Source: Rhodococcus rhodnii NBRC 100604 (GTDB taxonomy: Bacteria; Actinomycetota; Actinomycetes; Mycobacteriales; Mycobacteriaceae). Taken from it: a stretch of 64,000 nt of DNA. Location of the stretch: the NCBI RefSeq assembly GCF_001894925.1, contig NZ_BCXD01000012.1, forward strand, positions 62,001 through 126,000, in the 5' to 3' direction. A program made the position numbers and the translations under genes. Of this stretch, positions 2,662 to 12,982 are shown piece after piece (within the stretch, counting starts at the first letter, position 1; the number at the start of each line of letters is the position of its first letter). The notes beneath the pieces are model-generated. The model did no database searches and was not told where the DNA came from. It was given only the letters and a program-made list of their open reading frames with translations.

Positions 2662-3534
2662 TCAGACGCCGCGCGCCGAGCGGGCTTCCGTCGATGCGAC
2701 GGGTAGCGACGTGCGGTCGCCGGGCGGGCGGTTGCCGCGCAGCCAGCGGTTGGGGAGTTTGCCGGCGAGTTCGCCGAGCGGCCCGACGGCCGCGCCGAGG
2801 ATCGCGACGGTGTCCTGCAGCAGTTCGACGCTGTCGCTCATGCGCTCGAGGTTCGGCGCCAGCGAGGTCAGCGTCTGCGACAGCGACACGATCTGATCGA
2901 GCGGCCCGCCCTCCGCGATGAGGCGCTCGAACGCGCCGTTCTCGGCGAGCAGCGTCTCGAGGATGCCGTTCTGGGCGAGCGCGCGGTCGATGACGCCGCC
3001 CTTCGCGGTGAGCCGTTCGACGGCGCCGTCGTCGGCTGTGAGGCGTTCGAGCGGGCCGTCCTCGGCAGTGAGGCGATCGAGCAGCCCGCCGGGCGCGAGC
3101 AACCGGTCGAGCGGTCCGCCTTCGCTGAGGACGCGTTCGAGCGCGCCGTCGTCGGCGAGGACGCGGTCGAGCGGTCCGCCCTTCTGGAGCAGCCGATCCA
3201 CCGGCCCGCCTTCTTCGAGCAGCCGATCGAGGGTGCCGCCCTGGCGCGTGAGACGGTCGACGGGACCGCCGGCCTCGAGCAGCCGGTCGAGTGGGCCACC
3301 CGGCGCCAGCGCCTGGCCGAGGGGGCGGTCGTTCGCCGTGAGACTGGAGATCTGGTAGAGCATCTGCAGCGGAGCGCCGGTGTTCGACAGTCCCGAGACG
3401 CTCTCGGTGACGATCGCCGTGCTCGACACGGCGGAGCGGGCACTGCCCAGTGCGACCTGCGCGACGCCGATGGAGGCGTCGGTGACGGCGAGACCGATCT
3501 TGACCGGAGCGGCGATGAGCGACACCAGGTTCAT
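2662..3534 (-). CDS. Protein of unknown function with fourteen tandem decapeptide repeats
   Basis: 290 residues from ATG 3534 (a GTG at 3543 is the alternative). Residues 1-70 are mostly hydrophobic to amphipathic (N-L-V-S-L-I-A-A-P-V-K-I-G-L-A-V). They are followed by fourteen contiguous ten-residue units at about residues 78-217, with consensus x-G-G-P-L-D-R-L-L-x. Position 3 is Gly almost throughout, 6 is D/E, 7 is usually R, and 5, 8 and 9 are hydrophobic. A region without repeats (218-260) and a basic, Pro-rich tail follow. There is no signal peptide and no catalytic motif. The strict heptad-like hydrophobic spacing suggests a solenoid or an extended amphipathic rod lying on a membrane or polymer. 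Function unknown. It is divergent from phoP, whose upstream box it shares. Confidence 0.7.
   Translation of the reverse strand: MNLVSLIAAPVKIGLAVTDASIGVAQVALGSARSAVSSTAIVTESVSGLSNTGAPLQMLYQISSLTANDRPLGQALAPGGPLDRLLEAGGPVDRLTRQGGTLDRLLEEGGPVDRLLQKGGPLDRVLADDGALERVLSEGGPLDRLLAPGGLLDRLTAEDGPLERLTADDGAVERLTAKGGVIDRALAQNGILETLLAENGAFERLIAEGGPLDQIVSLSQTLTSLAPNLERMSDSVELLQDTVAILGAAVGPLGELAGKLPNRWLRGNRPPGDRTSLPVASTEARSARGV
2884..3303 (-). repeat. Decapeptide-coding tandem repeat (14 x 30 bp)
   Basis: Fourteen in-frame 30-base units within the preceding CDS. On the plus strand they show as recurring 'gcggtcgagcggtccgcc'-like blocks. Units differ at many third positions and some residues, so the array is old or selected at the protein level rather than a recent duplication. 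Confidence 0.85.
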
Positions 3535-3592
3535 GGTGATCACTGTAACCCCGGACACAGCCTCGGGCGCCGTGGGGAGAGAGCGTCGACGC

Positions 3593-3621
3593 TCACAGCG
3601 AGCTCCCAGGAAACGCCCAGC
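3593..3621 (+). promoter_or_regulatory. PhoP-type box upstream of phoP (three direct repeats)
   Basis: TCACAGC (3593-3599), TCCCAGG (3604-3610) and GCCCAGC (3615-3621) repeat with an exact 11-base period. The mycobacterial PhoP box is TCACAGC-N4-TCACAGC, so the first two units are a near match. The box begins 62 bases before the chosen phoP start. A weak -10 (CACACT, 3642-3647) is 20 bases beyond its end, a geometry suited to activation, here autoregulation. Confidence 0.65.
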
Positions 3622-3654
3622 TTCCCGGTGACGTGCCACGGCACACTGACGATC

Positions 3655-4365
3655 GTGACCGACCACGCCACGCCCGAAGCCCGCATCCTGCTCGTCGACG
3701 ACGAGCCGACGATCATCGAGCTGCTCACCGTGAGCCTGAAGTTCCAGGGATTCGAGGTGCGATCGGCGGCGACGGGCGCCGAAGGGCTCGACGTCGCGCG
3801 CTCGTTCCGGCCCGATGCCCTCGTGCTCGACGTGATGATGCCGGGTATGGACGGCCTTGGCCTGCTCAAACGGCTTCGCGCGGACGGTGTGGACGCACCG
3901 GTGCTGTTTCTCACCGCCAAGGATTCGGTCGAGGAAAAGGTCTCGGGGTTGACCCTCGGGGCCGACGATTATGTGACGAAGCCCTTCAGCCTCGAAGAAG
4001 TGGTCACCAGGCTGCGGGTGATTCTGCGCCGTGCGGGTCGACTCGACGCCGCCGTCGCGTCGCCGCGCGTGACGTTCGCCGACCTCGAACTCGACGACGA
4101 CACCCATGAGGTGTGGAAGGCGGGCGAGCCCGTCTCGCTCTCGCCGACCGAGTTCACCCTGCTGCGGTACTTCATGGTCAACGCGGGCACGGTGCTGAGC
4201 AAGCCGCGCATCCTCGATCATGTCTGGAACTACGACTTCGGCGGCGAGGTGGGCGTCGTCGAGTCGTACGTGTCCTATCTGCGGCGCAAGGTGGACACCG
4301 GCGAGACGCCGCTCATCCACACGCTGCGGGGCGTCGGCTACGTGATGCGCGAACCGCGGCGGTGA
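3655..4365 (+). CDS. phoP: Response regulator PhoP (OmpR family)
   Basis: 236 residues from GTG 3655, with a receiver domain at 8-125. The acidic pair is D15/D16, the phospho-acceptor is D59 in L-V-L-D-V-M-M-P-G-M-D-G and the lysine sits in Y-V-T-K-P-F-S. A winged-helix output domain (about 140-236) follows, with V-V-E-S-Y-V-S-Y-L-R-R-K. The sequence is strikingly close to M. tuberculosis PhoP, including S-L-K-F-Q-G-F-E-V, L-S-P-T-E-F-T-L-L-R-Y-F and the C-terminal H-T-L-R-G-V-G-Y-V. An in-frame GTG at 3628 would add nine residues. I prefer 3655 because a -10-like CACACT ends seven bases before it. phoR follows at once. In mycobacteria PhoP controls envelope lipid and stress genes. Here it probably regulates itself and the glycosyltransferase operon at 9582. 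Confidence 0.93.
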   Translation: MTDHATPEARILLVDDEPTIIELLTVSLKFQGFEVRSAATGAEGLDVARSFRPDALVLDVMMPGMDGLGLLKRLRADGVDAPVLFLTAKDSVEEKVSGLTLGADDYVTKPFSLEEVVTRLRVILRRAGRLDAAVASPRVTFADLELDDDTHEVWKAGEPVSLSPTEFTLLRYFMVNAGTVLSKPRILDHVWNYDFGGEVGVVESYVSYLRRKVDTGETPLIHTLRGVGYVMREPRR

Positions 4366-4367
4366 CG

Positions 4368-5786
4368 ATGCCCGGGGTCCGCACGCTTCCGCTGCGCTTC
4401 GGTCTCGTGCTCGCGGTGGTGCTGCTCACCGCCGTGGGCTTGCTGGCCAGCGGCGTCGCGGTGACGTCGGCGCTCGAGAACTCGCTGACGCGGCGCGTCG
4501 ACACCCAGCTCGAGGAGGCTGCGCAGGGCTGGGCGCGCCCGCTCGGCCCGCCACCGCGCGAGCTGGCGGGTGAGCCCGGGCCGGCGCGACCGCCCAGTTC
4601 GTTCTTCGTCCGCACGGTCGCACCCGACGGCACGGTGCTCCGGCAGGTCAACGACGGCGACGTCACGCCGTCGCTCCCCGACGCACCGGTGACCACGCCG
4701 ACGACAGTCGGTTCCGACGACGGCGATCAGCACTGGCGTGTGCTGTCCACGACCGGCTCCGACGGGACGACCACGGTCGGGCTCAGCCTCGCCGAGAACG
4801 ACGACACCGTGCAGCGGCTCGTCGTGCTGCAGGCACTGATCGGGCTCGGCGTCCTGGCCGCCGTCGCGGTCGCCGCCTATTTCGTCGTCCGGCGCTCGCT
4901 GCGGCCGCTGCGCGAGGTCGAGACCACGGCGGCCGCGATCGCGGGAGGTGACCTGCATCGGCGGGTCCCCGCGCGTGACCGCCGCACCGAGATCGGCCGG
5001 CTCTCCCACGCGCTCAACGGGATGCTCGCGCAGATCCAGCAGGCGTTCGCGGCCACCGCGGCGTCCGAGGACGCGGCGCGCCGCTCGGAGGAGAAGATGC
5101 GGCGTTTCGTCGCCGACGCGAGTCACGAGCTCAGGACGCCGCTGACGACGATCCGCGGGTTCGCCGAGCTCTATCGTCAGGGAGCGATGCCCGACACGGA
5201 CGCACTGATGAGCCGGATCGAGGGCGAGGCGTCGCGGATGGGACTGCTCGTCGAGGATCTGCTCGTGCTCGCGAGGCTCGACGCGCAGCGCCCGCTCGAC
5301 CGGCGCCCCGTCGACCTGCTCGCGGTGTGTTCCGACGCCGTGCACGCCGCGCGCGCGACCGCCCCGGATCGCGCGATCTCGCTCGTCGTGCTCGACGGTC
5401 CCGGCACACCCGAGGTCGTCGGCGACGATGCGCGGCTGCGGCAGGTGGTCGGCAATCTGCTCGGCAACGCCGTCGCGCACACGCCCGCCGACGCCGATGT
5501 CGTGGTGCGGTTGGGGACGACAGCGGATTCGGTCTTCGTCGAGGTCTCCGACACCGGGCCCGGCCTGTCGGAACACGATGCGGCCCATGTCTTCGAGCGC
5601 TTCTATCGCGCGGACACGTCACGGACACGCGCGAGTGGTGGATCGGGCCTGGGGTTGTCGATCGTCGCGGCCCTCGTCGCCGCGCACGCCGGCCGGGTCT
5701 CGGTGGAGTCGATGGCCGGCGAGGGAGCGACGTTCCGGGTCGAGCTGCCGCGCGAAGGCCTGTCAGGCAGCGCCCTCGAGCCGTAG
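4368..5786 (+). CDS. phoR: Sensor histidine kinase PhoR
   Basis: 472 residues, against about 485 in M. tuberculosis PhoR. Features in order: TM1 near 10-32, an extracytoplasmic sensor segment, TM2 near 150-174, HAMP (R-R-S-L-R-P-L-R-E-V-E onward), and an H-box D-A-S-H-E-L-R-T-P-L-T-T with phospho-acceptor H253. The ATPase boxes follow: N-L-L-G-N-A-V-A-H-T, D-T-G-P-G-L and G-G-S-G-L-G-L-S. It pairs with PhoP, whose stop lies two bases upstream. An in-frame GTG at 4362 would overlap that stop and add two residues. Its end overlaps the convergent ogt gene by 24 bases. Confidence 0.93.
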   Translation: MPGVRTLPLRFGLVLAVVLLTAVGLLASGVAVTSALENSLTRRVDTQLEEAAQGWARPLGPPPRELAGEPGPARPPSSFFVRTVAPDGTVLRQVNDGDVTPSLPDAPVTTPTTVGSDDGDQHWRVLSTTGSDGTTTVGLSLAENDDTVQRLVVLQALIGLGVLAAVAVAAYFVVRRSLRPLREVETTAAAIAGGDLHRRVPARDRRTEIGRLSHALNGMLAQIQQAFAATAASEDAARRSEEKMRRFVADASHELRTPLTTIRGFAELYRQGAMPDTDALMSRIEGEASRMGLLVEDLLVLARLDAQRPLDRRPVDLLAVCSDAVHAARATAPDRAISLVVLDGPGTPEVVGDDARLRQVVGNLLGNAVAHTPADADVVVRLGTTADSVFVEVSDTGPGLSEHDAAHVFERFYRADTSRTRASGGSGLGLSIVAALVAAHAGRVSVESMAGEGATFRVELPREGLSGSALEP

Positions 5787-6356
5787 CAGCGCTGTCTTCG
5801 TGTCGAGTCCGCCCAGGTAACCGCCGAGGCTCCCGTCCGTGCGCAGCACCCGGTGGCACGGCACCACGACGGGCAGCGGGTTGGTGGCGCACGCAGAGCC
5901 GACGGCCCGTGCGGCGCGGGGACTGCCGATGCGGGCGGCGAGTTGCGCATAGGTCGCGGTGGTGCCGTACCGGATCGTCGGCAGCAACTGCTGTACCTCG
6001 CGCCGGAACCTGCTCGACAACGCGAAGTCGAGCGGGACGTCGAACTCGCGGCGCCGGCCCGCGAAGTACTCGTCGAGTTCCCGGCGCACCGCATCGAGCC
6101 GCCGCGGTGCACGCAGAATCCGCGGGCTCACCCGGCGGGCGATGCCGGCGAGTACGGCGTCGTGATCCTCGTTGTCGAACACGACACGCAGCAACCCGCG
6201 CTCGGTCGCTGCGAGCAGCAGTTGCCCGATCGGCGAGTCGATCGGCGCGAGTGCGACGTCGAGGACGCCGACGTCGTCGGCACGCTGTTCGAGGCGATCG
6301 TGCAGAGCCGCGAGCCGGGCGTCGGATGCCGTGATCGTGGGGAGTGCGTCGTTCAT
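5763..6356 (-). CDS. ogt: Methylated-DNA--protein-cysteine methyltransferase
   Basis: Suicide repair enzyme that removes O6-alkyl groups from guanine by transfer to its own cysteine. 197 residues. The N-terminal domain is ribonuclease-like (P-I-G-Q-L-L-L-A-A-T-E-R-G-L-L). The C-terminal DNA-binding domain has Y-G-T-T-A-T-Y-A-Q-L-A, a helix with R-A-A-R-A-V-G-S-A, and the active site V-V-P-C-H-R-V with C167. The length is slightly above the usual 160-180 because of an N-terminal extension. Monocistronic and convergent with phoR. Confidence 0.95.
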   Translation of the reverse strand: MNDALPTITASDARLAALHDRLEQRADDVGVLDVALAPIDSPIGQLLLAATERGLLRVVFDNEDHDAVLAGIARRVSPRILRAPRRLDAVRRELDEYFAGRRREFDVPLDFALSSRFRREVQQLLPTIRYGTTATYAQLAARIGSPRAARAVGSACATNPLPVVVPCHRVLRTDGSLGGYLGGLDTKTALLRLEGAA

Positions 6357-6408
6357 GACCGGTAGACGCCGGGCGACCGCGGGATGTGAGGTCCGGCAGG
6401 TCGGCGGG

Positions 6409-6837
6409 TCAGCGGCTCGACACGTGCTCGCCGTCGCCCTGCTCGCGCAGCGCCGCCTTGATGCGCTCGGCGGCGTCGTCCATCGACTCCGGCGACGGGT
6501 CGCGTTCGGCGTTCGCGAAGTCGAAGTTGCCGAGCTCGTACGCGGGAAAGACGTGCACGTGCAGGTGCGGGACCTCGAGGCCCGCGATCACGAGCCCGGC
6601 GCGCGGTGCGTCGAAGGCGGCGACGACGGCCTGCCCGACCGTCTGTGCGACCGAGGTGATCTTCGCCCACAGCGCGGGATCGATCGACTGCCAGTTGTCG
6701 ACCTCGTCACGCGGGACGACGAGGGTGTGACCCTGCGTGAAGGGATTGATGGTGAGGAAGGCGACGACGTCGTCGTCCTCCCACACGAACCGACCCGGAA
6801 ACTCGCCGCTGATGATCTTGCTGAAGACGGAGGCCAT
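6409..6837 (-). CDS. HIT-family nucleotide-binding protein
   Basis: 142 residues from ATG 6837. The histidine triad H-L-H-V-H-V-F is at 91-97 (H91, H93, H95), and the N-terminal [10 protein letters not shown] is typical of Hint/HIT hydrolases acting on nucleoside phosphoramidates or dinucleotides. The substrate is not predictable. The M. tuberculosis neighbour of phoPR (Rv0759c) is also a HIT protein, supporting orthology. The start is backed by a TACCCT -10 box six bases upstream. Confidence 0.92.
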
Positions 6838-6843
6838 GACGTC

Positions 6844-6849
6844 AGGGTA
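6844..6849 (-). promoter_or_regulatory. -10 box of the HIT gene, leaderless
   Basis: TACCCT on the minus strand ends six bases before the ATG at 6837, so the transcript probably begins at the start codon. Confidence 0.45.
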
Positions 6850-6898
6850 GGTCACGAAAACCCACACGGCGGAGAGCACCATCGTCGACTGTGGAGAT

Positions 6899-9517
6899 GT
6901 GAACCAGCCGCGCAACAGCGCGAACCGGCCGGGCACCGACCGGCCGGACATCGGCCGTGGGCTCTCGACGGACGAGGCCCGCCGCCGACTGGAGCGCGAC
7001 GGGCGCAACGAACTGCCGCAGTCGACGCCGAAGCCGCCGTGGCGGCTGTTGCTCGCGCAGATGACGCACCTGTTCGCGGGCATGCTGTGGGTCGCGGCGC
7101 TCCTCGCGCTGCTCGCGCGGATGCCGGTCCTCGCGGCCGCGATCGCGGTCATCGTGGTGCTCAACGGCGTTTTCGCGTTTCTCCAGGAGTACCGCGCCGA
7201 TCAGGCGGCGCAGAAGCTGCGCTCACTGATGCCGGCGACTGCCCGGGTGCGGCGCGACGGCGCGGTGACCACCGTCGACGCCGCCGAACTCGTCCCCGGC
7301 GACGTCGTGCTGCTGTCGGCGGGAGATCGCATCGGAGCGGATCTGACCCTCGCCGACGTGGACGGGCTGGGAATCGACGCGTCGGTCCTCACCGGCGAGA
7401 GCGTGCCCGAGCATCCCGGTCGCGGCGACACGGTGCACTCGGGGACCTATGCCGTGGAGGGCGACGCGGTCGGCGTCGTCTCGGCGACCGGGTCCCACAC
7501 CTCGTTCGCGAACATCGCGTCGCTGACCGAGCACGCCTCGCGGCCGCAGAGCCCGCTCACGGTGCAGCTGCACCGGTTGGTCCGCTCGATCGCGGTCCTG
7601 GCGCTGTGCATCGGCGTCGGGCTGGCCGCGGTGGCACTGCTGCTCGGAACGTCGGTGACCCAGGCGCTCGTGTTCGGCATCGGTGTCACCGTGGCGCTCG
7701 TCCCGGAGGGGCTGCTGCCCACGGTGACGCTCTCGCTCGCGCACGGCGCGCAGCGCATGGCGAGCCGTCACGCTCTCGTCCGCCGGCTCGAAGCGGTGGA
7801 GACGCTGGGCGCCACGACCTTCGTCTGCACGGACAAGACCGGAACGCTGACACGTAACCAGATGGCGGTGTCGCAGGCGTGGACGACGGCGGGCCCCGTG
7901 ACCGTCGAGGGCGACGGCTACGACCACGCCGGAACGGTGCACGGGGACCCGGACGCGGTGTCGGTACTCGCGGCCGCCGCGACGGGCGCCGCCGCCTGCG
8001 TCGTCGGCCGTGCCGTGCACCACGGCGACAGCTGGATCGCGGAGGGCGATCCGCTCGACGCCGCTCTCGACGCGCTCGCGTGGCGGGCGGGAGTCGGCAA
8101 TCCCTCGGTCGACGCGCGGTTGCCCTTCACCCGGAAGACGATGAGCAGCGCTGCGGCGGTCGACGGTGTGGGCTATCTGCTGGGCGCGCCCGAAGCCGTG
8201 CTGGCGCGGTGCACGCGCGGGCTCGACGGCAGCCACGCGGAGCTCGATACGCTCGCGAGCCAGGGCCAGCGCGTGATGGCCGTCGCGCGCCGCCCCCTGA
8301 CGGCCGACCCGAGCACGCAGACACTGCAGGACACCGTGTCCGGCGACATGGAACTGCTGGCACTGCTCGCCGTCGCCGACCCGCCGCGCGAGGGCGTGGC
8401 CGAAGCGATCGAGGTGTGCCGCGACGCCGACATCCGCATCGCGATGGTGACCGGCGACAGCACCAGGACGGGCGAGGCGGTGGCCCGCAAGATCGGGCTG
8501 CTCGGCGACAAGGGAGTCGTGGTCGACTCGTCGGATCTCCCGAAAGACGATGCAGCACTGGCGAATCTGCTCGACTCGCCCGACGGCGCCGTCATCGGCC
8601 GGGTCCAGCCCGCCGACAAGCTGCGGATCGCCCGTGCGATGCGCTCGCACGGCCACGTCGTCGCGATGACGGGTGACGGGGTGAACGACGCCGCAGCCCT
8701 GCGTGAGGCCGATGTCGGTGTGGCGATGGGAAAGTCGGGCAGCGACGTCGCACGATCGGCGGCCGATCTCGTTCTCCTCGACGACCACTTCGCCACGATC
8801 GTCGACGCGATCGAACTGGGCCGGTCGACCTTCGCCAACATCCGTCGCTTCCTCACCTATCACCTCACCGACAACGTCGCCGAACTGGTGCCGTTCGTGG
8901 CGTGGGCGCTGTCGGCCGGGTCGCTTCCGCTCGCCCTCGGCGTGCTGCAGGTTCTCGCGCTCGACATCGGCACCGACATGCTGCCGGCGCTCGCACTGGG
9001 GGACGAACCGCCGGACAAGCGAACGATGCGCGGCCGCAGCCGGCTTCGCGCCATCGTCGACGGCCGCCTGCTGCGGCGTGCGCTGCTCGTCCTCGGGCCC
9101 ACCGAGGCGGCGGTGTCGATGGTGGCGTTCGTCGTCGTGCTGCTGCTCGGTGGCTGGCGCTGGGGGGAGAGCGCCGATCCGGTGGTGCTCGCGACCGCGT
9201 CGGGCAGTGCGTTCGCCGTGATCGTGCTCGGTCAGATGGCCAACGCGTTCGCGTGCCGGAGCGAGGAGGATCCGGTGTGGCGGACGGCGCTGACCGGCAA
9301 CCGGCCACTGCTCGCCGCGATCGCCGTCGAATGCGTCTTCCTCACGGTGATCCTGGGGGTGCCGTGGCTCGCGGACCTGTTCGGTGGCCGGTGGCCGAGT
9401 TGGGAGGGCTGGCTGTTCGCGGTGTTCGCGGTTCCCGCGGTGATTCTGGTCGACGCGGCATACAAGGCGCGGCGCCGAGCGAGGGCCGAGCACGAGTACG
9501 CCGCCGGGACGCGCTGA
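6899..9517 (+). CDS. Cation-transporting P-type ATPase (P2 type)
   Basis: 872 residues, with all P-type landmarks in order: actuator loop T-G-E-S (about 165), P-E-G-L in the ion-binding membrane helix, phosphorylation site D-K-T-G-T-L-T (D312), and hinge T-G-D-G-V-N-D-A (about 591). About ten membrane helices are present, including [14 protein letters not shown] near 700. The P-E-G-L motif and the C-terminal cation-ATPase domain place it with the P2 group (Ca/Na/K/Mg-like) rather than the CPx metal pumps; the ion is undetermined. The GTG start has only a close-by GGAG (two-base spacing), so initiation may be leaderless. No accessory gene is linked. Confidence 0.9.
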
Positions 9518-9520
9518 GCC

Positions 9521-9549
9521 TCACAGCAATCTCCCAGCCCGATTCCAGG
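9521..9549 (+). promoter_or_regulatory. PhoP-type box upstream of the glycosyltransferase operon
   Basis: TCACAGC (9521-9527), TCCCAGC (9532-9538) and TTCCAGG (9543-9549) have an exact 11-base period. The box begins 61 bases before the ATG at 9582, against 62 bases for the matching box before phoP. The first two units match the mycobacterial PhoP box apart from one base. Strong candidate for direct PhoP control. Confidence 0.65.
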
Positions 9550-9581
9550 GCCGGTCCACCTCGGGATCCGACGCTGGCAGC

Positions 9582-10874
9582 ATGACCACCGAATCCCTCC
9601 CCGGCTCCGTCCCCACCGGACTGCGCCGACCGGGCCCAGCCCATGCCCGACCGCGCCGGACCACCGCGCTCGACGTCGTCGTGCCGGTGTACAACGAGGA
9701 GGCGTCGCTCGAACGATGCATCCGTAGCCTGCACGACCATCTGGCGACCGAGGTCCCGTACTCGGCGCACATCACGATCGCCGACAACGCGAGCACCGAC
9801 GCGACGCTCGCCGTCGCGCACCGACTCGCGGAGGAGGTGCCGGGAGTCCGCGTCGTCCATCTCGACGAGAAGGGCCGTGGCCGTGCGCTGAAGGCGGTGT
9901 GGTCGACGTCGGACGCCGACGTCGTCGCCTACATGGACGTCGACCTGTCGACGAAGCTCGACGGCTTCATGCCGCTGGTCGCGCCGCTGCTGTCCGGACA
10001 CTCCGACATCGCGATCGGGTCCCGGCTCGCGCGATCGGCCCGCGTCGTCCGTGGCCCGAAGCGGGAATTCGTCTCCCGCAGCTACAACCTCATCCTGCGA
10101 ACCACCCTGCGGGCACGGTTCAGCGACGCACAGTGCGGGTTCAAGGCCGTGCGCTCCGAGGTCGCGCACGAGTTGCTTCCGCTCGTGCAGGACGGTGGCT
10201 GGTTCTTCGACACCGAACTGCTCGTCCTCGCCGAGCGCGCCGGACTGCGGATCCACGAGGTTCCGGTCGACTGGATCGACGATCCGGACAGCCGAGTCGA
10301 CATCGTCGCCACCGCGGTCGAGGACCTCCGCGGCGTCTGGCGGGTGGGACGCGCACTCGCGACCGGACGCGTTCCGCTGCGCAGCATCACCGCCGCCGCG
10401 GGACGCGACGTCCCGGCAGCGGGCGAACCGAAGGGAACGCTCGGACAGATGGTGCGTTTCGGCGTCGTCGGTATCGCCTCCACGATCGCGTACGCCCTTG
10501 TCTACCTGCTGCTGCATCCGCTGACCGGGGCGCAGGCCGCCAACGCGCTCGCACTGCTCGTCACCGCGATCCTCAACACCGCCGCCAACCGCGCCTTCAC
10601 CTTCGGGGTACGCGGCCGCGCCGGCGCCGCGCGTCACCACCTGCAGGGGCTCGGCGTCTTCGCGGTCGGCCTGGTGCTCACGAGCGGCTCGCTCGCCGTC
10701 CTGCACCGCGCGGTGCCGGATGCCTCACGGGGCCTCGAACTCGCCGTGCTGGTCACCGCGAACCTCGTCGCCACGATCACCCGATTCGTCGCACTGCGAT
10801 GGGTGTTCCGGGTCCGCGATCGTGTCGATCCGCCCGCCGGAACGGACTCCACCACCGAGGGGAGCGCGCTGTGA
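9582..10874 (+). CDS. Bifunctional GT2 glycosyltransferase / GtrA membrane protein
   Basis: 430 residues. Residues 28-250 are a GT-A fold family-2 transferase: V-V-V-P-V-Y-N-E-E, D-N-A-S-T-D-A-T, and D-x-D as Y-M-D-V-D-L. It resembles polyprenyl-phosphate glucose/mannose synthases, with C-G-F-K and F-D-T-E-L-L. Residues from about 285 form a GtrA domain of four membrane helices. The inferred role is to load a sugar on polyprenyl phosphate and help flip it for the GT39 enzyme encoded next, whose GTG overlaps this stop by four bases. A PhoP-type box precedes it. The pair resembles B. subtilis ykcC/ykcB. Confidence 0.88.
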   Translation: MTTESLPGSVPTGLRRPGPAHARPRRTTALDVVVPVYNEEASLERCIRSLHDHLATEVPYSAHITIADNASTDATLAVAHRLAEEVPGVRVVHLDEKGRGRALKAVWSTSDADVVAYMDVDLSTKLDGFMPLVAPLLSGHSDIAIGSRLARSARVVRGPKREFVSRSYNLILRTTLRARFSDAQCGFKAVRSEVAHELLPLVQDGGWFFDTELLVLAERAGLRIHEVPVDWIDDPDSRVDIVATAVEDLRGVWRVGRALATGRVPLRSITAAAGRDVPAAGEPKGTLGQMVRFGVVGIASTIAYALVYLLLHPLTGAQAANALALLVTAILNTAANRAFTFGVRGRAGAARHHLQGLGVFAVGLVLTSGSLAVLHRAVPDASRGLELAVLVTANLVATITRFVALRWVFRVRDRVDPPAGTDSTTEGSAL

Positions 10875-12982
10875 CCACCACACTCGACACCGCCGTGGCG
10901 AGCCCGGCGAGCGCACCGCGATCGCGCCCCCGCGAGGTCTGGGCACTCGGCGCCCTGCTCGTGGGGACGGCGGTGGCCTATCTCGTGAATCTGAGCGCGT
11001 CGGGATGGGGAAACTCGTTCTATGCGGCTGCGGTACAAGCGGGTTCGCAGTCGTGGACCGCCTTCTTCTTCGGTTCGTCCGACGCCGCGAACTCGATCAC
11101 CGTGGACAAACCGCCGGCGTCGCTCTGGGTGATGGGGCTCTCGGTGCGGCTGTTCGGGCTGAACTCGTGGGCCCTGCTCGTGCCGCAGGTCCTCATGGGT
11201 GTCGGATCGGTGGCGTTGCTCTACTTCGTGGTGCGGCGGCGATTCGGTGTCACGGCGGGATTGCTCGCCGGCCTCGTCCTCGCACTCACGCCCGTCGCGG
11301 TCCTGATGTTCCGCTTCGACAACCCCGACGCGCTGCTGGTGCTGCTCATGATCGGCGCCGTCTGGGCGCTGTTGCGCGGTGTCGAGGACGGCCGTACCCG
11401 ATGGCTCGTACTCACGGGCGTCTTCGTCGGTTTCGGCTTCCTCACCAAGCAGTTGCAGGTGATGCTCGTCGTTCCGCCGCTCGCGCTGACCTATCTGCTC
11501 GCGGGCCCACCGGCCTTCGGGAAACGGCTCGCACAGTGTTTCGCCGCGCTCGGAGCGGTGATCGTCTCGGCGGGTTGGTGGATCGCGATCGTCGAGTTGT
11601 GGCCCGCGGACTCGCGGCCGTGGATCGGTGGCTCCCAGAACAACTCGATCCTCGAATTGACGCTGGGCTACAACGGATTCGGCAGACTCAGCGGAAACGA
11701 GACCGGCAGCGTCGTGCCGGGCGGCGCCGGTGACGCTGGCGGAGCGGGGATGCCCGGCGGCGGACCGGGCGGCGGAATGTGGGGGAGCACCGGCATCGGC
11801 CGGATGTTCGACGGCGAACAGGGTGGTCAGATCGCCTGGCTGATCCCCGCGGCGCTGCTGCTCGGCGGCGTCGCTCTCGTCCTGCTGCGCCGCGCACCGC
11901 GCACCGACGTCCGCCGAGCGACCGTGATCGTCTGGGGCTTGTGGCTCCTCGTCACCGGCCTCACGTTCAGCTTCATGGCGGGGATCTTCCACGCGTACTA
12001 CACGGTGGCGCTGGCGCCGGCGATCGCGGCACTGGTCGGCGCGGGCGCCGTCACGGCCTGGCGTCACCGCGAGCGCACGTGGGTGCGGATCGCGCTGGCA
12101 GCCGCCGTCGCGCTCACCGCTGTCATGGCGTGGATCCTGCTCGGCCGCTCGCCGGAGTTCGTGCCGTGGCTCCGCGTGACGGTCGTCGTGGCGGGGGTGC
12201 TCGCCACGATCGGCGTGCTCGTACCCCCCGTGACGTCGGGACGCCTCGCGGCTGTGACATCGGGACGCCTCGCGGCTGTGACGATCGCGGCGGCGTTGTT
12301 CACCGGTCTCGCCGGGCCGACGGCCTACGCCGTGAACACCATCGCGATCCCGCACGAGGGGTCGATCGTGTCCGCCGGCCCGGCGGTGGCAGGCGGTGGC
12401 CCCGGTGGGATGGGTGGCCCTGGTGGGATGGGCGGCCCCGGTGGCATGGCCGGCCCGGGTGGCCAGGGAGGCCCGGACGGTCGGGGAGCCGGCATGGGCT
12501 TTCCCGGCGGCGGCGCGCAGGACGGCGGCTTTCCCGGTGGGGGAGCACCGGACGGCGGCGCGCAGGACGGCGGCATGCCCGGCGGCGGCATGCCCGGCGG
12601 TGGCATGCCCGGCGGTGGTCTGCTTCGGGGCAGCGAGCCGAGCGAGGAACTCACGTCACTGCTTCTCGCCGACGCCGACGACTACACCTGGGTCGCGGCG
12701 ACCGTGGGTTCCAACAGCGCCTCGGGATATCAGCTCGCGACGCAGCGACCGGTGATGCCGATCGGCGGATTCAACGGCAGCGACCCGTCGCCGACGCTCG
12801 AGGAGTTCCAGCAGTACGTGACCGACGGCGAGATCCACTACTTCCTCGCAGGTGGCATGGGAGGCGGACCCGGCGGTGGGGGTACCGGGAGCGCGATCGC
12901 CCAGTGGGTCAAGGACACCTTCACGGCCACGACGATCGGCGGCACGCAGGTGTACGACCTCACGGCGCCGTCCGCGGCATGA
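10871..12982 (+). CDS. GT39/ArnT-like membrane glycosyltransferase with Gly-rich segments
   Basis: 703 residues from GTG 10871. A polytopic GT-C enzyme (about 11-12 helices) with an early periplasmic loop S-I-T-V-D-K-P-P, where the acidic residue is expected to be catalytic. It should use a polyprenyl-phosphate sugar, made by the upstream GT2 protein, to glycosylate an envelope acceptor. Unusual features are a Gly/Met/Pro-rich insertion near residues 278-305 and a longer one near 507-590 made of P-G-G-M-G-G / M-P-G-G-G units. A soluble C-terminal domain (600-703) follows. A tandem copy of S-G-R-L-A-A-V-T lies near 455-470. YkcB-type proteins have similar Gly-rich stretches. The acceptor is unknown. 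Confidence 0.85.
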   Translation: MTTTLDTAVASPASAPRSRPREVWALGALLVGTAVAYLVNLSASGWGNSFYAAAVQAGSQSWTAFFFGSSDAANSITVDKPPASLWVMGLSVRLFGLNSWALLVPQVLMGVGSVALLYFVVRRRFGVTAGLLAGLVLALTPVAVLMFRFDNPDALLVLLMIGAVWALLRGVEDGRTRWLVLTGVFVGFGFLTKQLQVMLVVPPLALTYLLAGPPAFGKRLAQCFAALGAVIVSAGWWIAIVELWPADSRPWIGGSQNNSILELTLGYNGFGRLSGNETGSVVPGGAGDAGGAGMPGGGPGGGMWGSTGIGRMFDGEQGGQIAWLIPAALLLGGVALVLLRRAPRTDVRRATVIVWGLWLLVTGLTFSFMAGIFHAYYTVALAPAIAALVGAGAVTAWRHRERTWVRIALAAAVALTAVMAWILLGRSPEFVPWLRVTVVVAGVLATIGVLVPPVTSGRLAAVTSGRLAAVTIAAALFTGLAGPTAYAVNTIAIPHEGSIVSAGPAVAGGGPGGMGGPGGMGGPGGMAGPGGQGGPDGRGAGMGFPGGGAQDGGFPGGGAPDGGAQDGGMPGGGMPGGGMPGGGLLRGSEPSEELTSLLLADADDYTWVAATVGSNSASGYQLATQRPVMPIGGFNGSDPSPTLEEFQQYVTDGEIHYFLAGGMGGGPGGGGTGSAIAQWVKDTFTATTIGGTQVYDLTAPSAA
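12230..12277 (+). repeat. 24-bp tandem duplication in the GT39 gene
   Basis: Two adjacent 24-base units (12230-12253 and 12254-12277) differ by one base and encode V-T-S-G-R-L-A-A twice. This is a recent in-frame duplication in a loop between membrane helices. Confidence 0.8.
12397..12630 (+). repeat. Gly-rich coding repeat in the GT39 gene
   Basis: Short imperfect units built on 'ggtgggatgggcggcccc' and 'ggcggcatgcccggc' encode runs of P-G-G-M-G-G and M-P-G-G-G. Such a track is prone to length variation between strains. Confidence 0.75.

Follow-up and report, generated by a model that had tools for sequence, protein, structure and literature searches.

A 64,000-nucleotide stretch of the genome of Rhodococcus rhodnii NBRC 100604 (contig NZ_BCXD01000012.1, positions 62,001 to 126,000; hereafter the window) carries two copies of a three-unit box, one preceding phoP and phoR, the genes of a response regulator and a sensor kinase, and the other preceding a two-gene operon that encodes a GT2 glycosyltransferase with a GtrA domain and a GT39-type membrane glycosyltransferase. 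Comparison with related genomes makes it very probable that PhoP controls both phoPR and the GT2/GT39 operon through this box, as a class II activator of leaderless transcripts. Such a circuit would be of a known kind; what appears to be new is its target, a widely conserved glycosylation operon.

One box at two promoters

Each box consists of three 7-base units separated by 4-bp spacers, which gives a period of exactly 11. TCACAGC comes first, TCCCAG[G/C] second and a looser unit third (Table 1), and the GT2 box is followed by a weak fourth unit (4/7) at 9554-9560. The first base of unit 1 lies 62 nucleotides before the start codon of phoP (GTG 3655) and 61 before that of the GT2 gene (ATG 9582). 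An initial annotation, made from the sequence of the stretch, had described the units, the period and these two distances, as well as a gap of 20 bases between the end of either box and a -10-like hexamer, and direct reading of the sequence confirms all of them. Both promoters hold at least two 7-bp units with a 4-bp spacer, and the period controls given below agree with this.

The annotation had also cited TCACAGC-N4-TCACAGC as the known mycobacterial PhoP site. The 7+4 geometry of that site is present here, but the exact double motif has no match in the whole genome (4,458,924 bases scanned, 4.46 Mb); since the second units read TCCCAG[G/C], the window boxes are a variant of the PhoP site. 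The genome-wide scan that had been suggested leaves these two boxes standing alone as strong sites. Allowing up to three mismatches, TCMCAGN5TCMCAGN5TCMCAG matches six times, versus eight for the reversed control: twice with one mismatch (the window boxes), once with two and three times with three. The window boxes are the only sites within one mismatch, where arithmetic on a uniform base composition predicts about 0.05 matches by chance; the four further sites, at two or three mismatches, do no better than the reversed control and were rejected. TCACAGSN4TCCCAGS matches exactly twice, at the same two boxes (control, 0). A box model of 44 positions, built from 44 boxes including the window's own two, likewise returned these two and no further target in this genome at E≤0.5, in a search whose strict filters lose weak matches.

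On sequence grounds, the window regulator is an ortholog of PhoP of Mycobacterium tuberculosis. It carries a receiver and a winged-helix domain (PF00072 and PF00486), is identical to M. tuberculosis PhoP at 175 of 233 residues (65 of 76 in the C-terminal DNA-binding stretch compared), scores 401 bits to PhoP versus 180 to PrrA, and shares one clade with M. tuberculosis PhoP in a tree of 83 regulators (support 96/95). The base-contacting residues V213, E215, S216, Y217 and Y220 are kept, and N212 is replaced by Gly. Position 212 (M. tuberculosis numbering) is Gly in 28 and Asn in 2 of 30 phoP loci, window included; among the loci examined, those of the same genus have Gly and those of Gordonia, Williamsia, Nocardia and Mycobacterium have Asn. 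The PhoP query finds only two other regulators in the genome at E≤1e-50, 52% and 43% identical. As to the operon, GT2, GtrA-type and PMT-type parts are all present together by Pfam; the best solved relative of the GT2 protein is a dolichol monophosphate mannose synthase (5mlz), and the GT39-type protein weakly matches ArnT (5ezm). The operon probably encodes an extracytoplasmic glycosylation system that moves a sugar to an envelope acceptor. The gene assignments of the initial annotation (PhoP-type regulator, GT2 with GtrA, GT39-type enzyme) are thus borne out by Pfam and by the M. tuberculosis PhoP alignment.

Conservation at period 11

Boxes were scored over three units, out of 21, and called at 16 or more when near and upstream of the protein match, loci being oriented by alignment to the reference proteins. 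Among the window's genome and 60 relatives, GT2 is found in 40 of 61 genomes (E≤1e-30) and the PhoP query matches 57 of 61 (E≤1e-50, paralogs included). In the best 30 loci for each gene, window included, a period-11 box precedes phoP in 30/30 and GT2 in 27/30, the three misses (L059, L061 and L062) scoring 15 each. Control periods of 8-10 and 12-15 give 0-5 of 30 for phoP and 0-8 of 30 for GT2, and the reverse complement gives 2 and 1. Position is conserved as well: an in-frame start codon lies 61 or 62 nucleotides after unit 1 in all 44 dereplicated boxes (26 phoP and 18 GT2; of the 60 loci, 8 had been set aside at the outset and 8 more were duplicates). A fourth unit extends the array in many relatives. 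GT2 may lie about 2 kb from phoP (G019), about 15 kb away (G014, G017) or divergent to it (G032), and the box accompanies GT2 throughout.

A scan of named genomes, of which the best 80 of 506 GT2 loci were kept, extends this to Rhodococcus, Nocardia, Gordonia, Williamsia, Mycobacterium, Streptomyces, Actinoplanes and relatives, Amycolatopsis, Frankia and others; the named loci closest to the window's GT2 are those of Rhodococcus. A score of at least 16 is reached at period 11 by 73 of these 80 loci and one of at least 17 by 60. Other periods give 0-5 and 0-2, and the reverse complement gives 1 and 0. The absence of the box before orthologous GT2 genes, which the initial annotation had named as grounds for giving up its prediction, is therefore not what these two sets of loci show. 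Eighteen further GT2 loci from a family search all reach 16, some of them repeating named loci with identical promoters.

The two genes also tend to occur together. Across 301 genomes of the window's family, window included, PhoP is found in 262 (E≤1e-85) and GT2 in 183 (E≤1e-100); both occur in 180, so that 180 of the 183 genomes with GT2 carry PhoP, with GT2 alone in 3 (G105, G231, G242), PhoP alone in 82 and neither in 36 (Fisher p 1.6e-13, the genomes being related). Outside the window's genus, 39 genomes from the heads of both lists were compared: in 36 of them phoP and GT2 share a contig, always on the same strand and within 20 kb; divergent cases are known elsewhere in relatives.

The best single argument for a shared reader is that the two boxes have changed together. 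In three relatives (G032, G121 and G136; loci L262, L261 and L260), the phoP and GT2 boxes are both made of TCCCGGG-type repeats, with period 11 kept and starts 61-62 nucleotides (phoP) or 63 nucleotides (GT2) after unit 1, pointing to one regulator that reads both. In G032 and G136 the two genes diverge, and sequence likeness indicates the same for G121.

The proposed circuit and its alternatives

In the circuit that we infer, PhoR would phosphorylate PhoP, which would bind head to tail on the three 7-bp units with their 4-bp spacers (four units in many relatives). In aligned GT2 promoters, counting from the ATG, A is found at -12 in 72-87% and T at -8 in 78-91%, a pattern that suggests a -10 element and leaderless transcription. 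In that case the array would end just upstream of the -10 and cover the -35 region, as with PhoB, and PhoP would most likely recruit RNA polymerase as a class II activator. The pho box of Escherichia coli PhoB likewise consists of 11-bp direct repeats (7+4) just upstream of the -10 and serves class II activation, although its unit sequence and its signal differ from those of the window boxes. The two strong sites of the genome would thereby place phoPR itself and the GT2-GtrA/GT39 operon under PhoP. In the operon, GT2 would probably load a sugar on polyprenyl phosphate, the GtrA domain would flip the loaded lipid-sugar, and GT39 would transfer the sugar to the envelope acceptor. PhoP control of the operon, as initially predicted, is supported by box conservation, PhoP orthology and the concerted change of the boxes, from which binding would follow.

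One could argue that the likeness of the two boxes is a shared family motif and that the box at 9521 is read by another regulator of the OmpR family, all the more as, in Streptomyces and others, GT2 is preceded by a similar box that accompanies a sister clade of regulators. However, the only two other regulators matched in the window's genome at E≤1e-50 fall outside both the PhoP and the sister clade and have different recognition helices, the phoP and GT2 boxes changed together in three relatives, and PhoP accompanies GT2 almost throughout the family, which makes this explanation improbable. Somewhat less improbable, but still unlikely, is that PhoP binds both boxes and represses, or acts either way depending on phosphorylation. 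Repeats alone hold no information on the sign of control, and at M. tuberculosis phoP they are reported downstream of +1 (PMC3413638); here, in contrast, the array precedes the start by a constant distance, as for activators, and Mycobacterium abscessus PhoP is reported to raise its own promoter (PMC10715180). Finally, the GT2 box could be a remnant without function or have arisen by chance, which the weakness of the fourth unit and of the -10 in the window would fit; conservation that shows at period 11 and at no other, together with the fixed distance to the start codon, renders this idea extremely unlikely.

Activation of both promoters by PhoP remains our preferred explanation, and several observations weigh against it. 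The TCCCGGG change came without a matching change of the recognition helix: in G032, G121 and G136 this helix equals that of the window, with two flanking residues differing, and no substitution in the DNA-binding domain is unique to these three when compared with 31 other sequences; L097 has the same stretch around the helix and yet the usual box. Part of the change could come from repeat exchange within the shared intergenic region. In the M. tuberculosis structure, residue 212 is an Asn that contacts four bases (PMC4832192), and this position is Gly in the window's PhoP. The species compared are related, so the counts are not independent. As for the two M. abscessus genes discussed below (MAB_0926 and MAB_0927), they may not be orthologs of GT2/GT39, and they are absent from the reported table of genes that change in the phoPR deletion at pH 5.7 (PMC10715180).

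A sister regulator beyond the family

Outside the window's family, GT2 mostly adjoins another regulator with a similar box. The tree of 83 regulators sets a PhoP clade of 44 sequences apart from a sister clade of 34 (support 98/97), the latter composed of GT2-linked regulators of Streptomyces, Micromonosporaceae, Pseudonocardiaceae, Frankia and others; L152, a GT2-linked regulator of low identity, falls outside both. The box is found at 18 of 18 GT2-linked regulators with at least 70% identity that have upstream sequence (19 in all), and at 24 of 29 of lower identity. In two members of the window's family, a second GT2 lies close to a regulator of the sister clade (L167, L190). The ten PhoP-clade sequences from other families have no GT2 within the fetched stretches, and G044, G048, G051 and G055 have no GT2 match at all in the genome; the box model matches before the PhoP gene in G044, G048, G050, G051 and G052.

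The simplest history may be that PhoP took the operon over from the sister regulator. Besides autoregulation, control of the glycosylation operon would then be the most ancient task conserved in the PhoP lineage. In Streptomyces, Micromonosporaceae and Pseudonocardiaceae the sister clade would drive the operon through a box of this type, PhoP would do so in the window's family, and the regulator would thus have been swapped while the promoter geometry stayed fixed. We consider the chances of this broader proposal to be evenly balanced. Its breadth is limited by 7 of the 80 named loci that score below 16 (L134, L156, L153, L167, L152, L171, L174) and by 32 of the 80, many of them Nocardia, that have no regulator match of more than 200 residues in the flank. 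Below 16 are also 5 of the 29 promoters of sister-type regulators, where the reverse complement reaches 16 in 9, and in distant families no clear box was seen at the GT2 of G052, G050 and G039 or at the regulators of G055, G047, G060 and L190 (G034). The linkage of the sister clade to GT2 is itself biased, since its sequences were collected at GT2 loci or chosen for a nearby GT2.

A correlation between regulator and box is only suggestive, the two groups being separate lineages. At residue 216, 43 of 44 PhoP-clade sequences have Ser and the last one Thr; of the 34 sister sequences, 33 have Leu and one has Ile. The identity of this residue seems to go with A at unit position 3: among the 23 unique GT2 promoters that score at least 16 and are linked to a regulator of lower identity, 96-100% have A there, and the remaining 46 named GT2 promoters vary (A in 33% at unit 1 and 39% at unit 2). 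In the M. tuberculosis structure, Ser216 is described as sharing a water that contacts the A of unit position 3 (PMC4832192). A link between residue 212 (Asn or Gly) and the same position was dropped, Gordonia and Williamsia having Asn yet C or G there.

Known systems and significance

M. tuberculosis PhoP is reported to bind its repeats as tandem dimers with a strict 4-bp spacing, and to have in vitro a higher affinity for DNA with three and four motifs than with two (PMC4832192). The window shares with it an orthologous regulator, the 7+4 geometry, arrays of three or four motifs and, as a prediction, autoregulation of phoP, but differs in its units (TC[A/C]CAG[C/G], with looser third units), in residue 212 (Asn there, Gly here), in the glycosylation operon as putative target and in the place of the autoregulatory repeats, reported downstream of +1 there (PMC3413638). 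PhoP autoregulation, predicted for the window by the initial annotation and supported by the box in 30/30 phoP loci, was already known in mycobacteria (PMC3413638, PMC10715180). PhoP of M. abscessus binds the promoter of its own gene and raises its activity. RNA sequencing of PhoR-defective strains shows that two genes labelled as glycosyltransferases, MAB_0926 and MAB_0927, rise along with phoP, which was confirmed for MAB_0926 by reverse-transcription quantitative PCR (PMC10715180). Both points resemble the proposed circuit; in the account given of them the two genes appear without a box or a direct link to PhoP (PMC10715180). The initial annotation knew of no description of a link between PhoP and a GT2/GT39 operon, and this holds insofar as no paper joining PhoP to a GT2-GtrA/GT39 operon was found in a survey that was mostly at title level and covered few subscription journals; it has to be qualified by the phoP-associated glycosyltransferase genes already reported in M. 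abscessus.

The CsbB-YfhO, YkcC-YkcB and YkoT-YkoS pairs of Bacillus subtilis are also two-gene operons of a GT2 and a GT-C membrane enzyme, and CsbB-YfhO is required there for lipoteichoic acid glycosylation (PMC5836110). The YkcB_C domain of the window's GT39-type protein occurs in B. subtilis too. What differs is the GtrA domain, fused to GT2 in the window, and the promoters, since sigma-factor promoters are given for two of the B. subtilis operons (PMC5836110).

Knowledge of PhoP centres on its role in the virulence of M. tuberculosis. A target tracking phoP across much of the family, and the sister regulator in other actinobacteria, would offer a non-pathogenic setting for the PhoPR signal, and what the lineage first evolved to control was probably the modification of the cell envelope. 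This evolutionary aspect is part of the main interest of the system: it is a candidate case of regulator swap on a fixed promoter architecture, and the concerted change of two boxes provides a handle on the evolution of PhoP specificity.

Features of the window and further box sites

Table 1. Boxes, promoter elements and genes of the proposed circuit (window coordinates).
Feature	Position	Strand	Basis and remarks
PhoP box before phoP (predicted)	3593..3621	+	Units TCACAGC (3593-3599), TCCCAGG (3604-3610), GCCCAGC (3615-3621); sequence, genome motif scans, box in 30/30 phoP loci
-10-like hexamer CACACT	3642..3647	+	20 nt past phoP box end, 7 nt before GTG; weak alone; putative leaderless start
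phoP, OmpR/PhoB-family response regulator, PhoP ortholog	3655..4365	+	Pfam; M. tuberculosis PhoP alignment; tree
phoR, sensor histidine kinase (HAMP, HisKA, HATPase_c)	4368..5786	+	Pfam
PhoP box before GT2/GT39 operon (predicted)	9521..9549	+	Units TCACAGC (9521-9527), TCCCAGC (9532-9538), TTCCAGG (9543-9549); sequence, genome motif scans, box before GT2 in 27/30 and 73/80 loci
-10-like hexamer GACGCT	9570..9575	+	20 nt past GT2 box end, 6 nt before ATG; weak alone
GT2 glycosyltransferase with C-terminal GtrA/DPMS membrane domain	9582..10874	+	PF00535, PF04138
GT39-type membrane glycosyltransferase (PMT_2 and YkcB_C)	10871..12982	+	PF13231, PF24878; overlaps GT2 by 4 nt

A HIT-domain gene follows phoR on the opposite strand (Pfam). 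M. tuberculosis has the same arrangement. The gene divergent to phoP (2662-3539, minus strand) encodes many GPxDRL-type repeats; neither Pfam nor NCBIfam gave a match to the part tested (2662-3534). Between phoR and GT2 lies a cation P-type ATPase (6899-9517); as it has no match in the available flanks of the 80 named GT2 loci, it was perhaps inserted in the window's lineage.

Fourteen further box sites were inspected in relatives, with Pfam run on one protein of each kind and the others judged by eye. The box precedes a second PMT-type transferase at three sites (L230, L234, L238) and a dioxygenase-like secreted protein with Gly/Pro-rich stretches at five (L228, L229, L235-L237; Pfam on L228), the latter in relatives both with and without the GT2 operon. 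HtrA-like trypsin/PDZ proteases follow it in other families of the order (L231, L232, L233; Pfam on L231), and a two-unit box precedes a YceI-type exported protein in the two genomes examined (L239, L240; Pfam on L239). The L241 site, inside a gene, looks like chance. The distance to the start varies among these sites and is 61-63 nucleotides at L231, L233 and L239.

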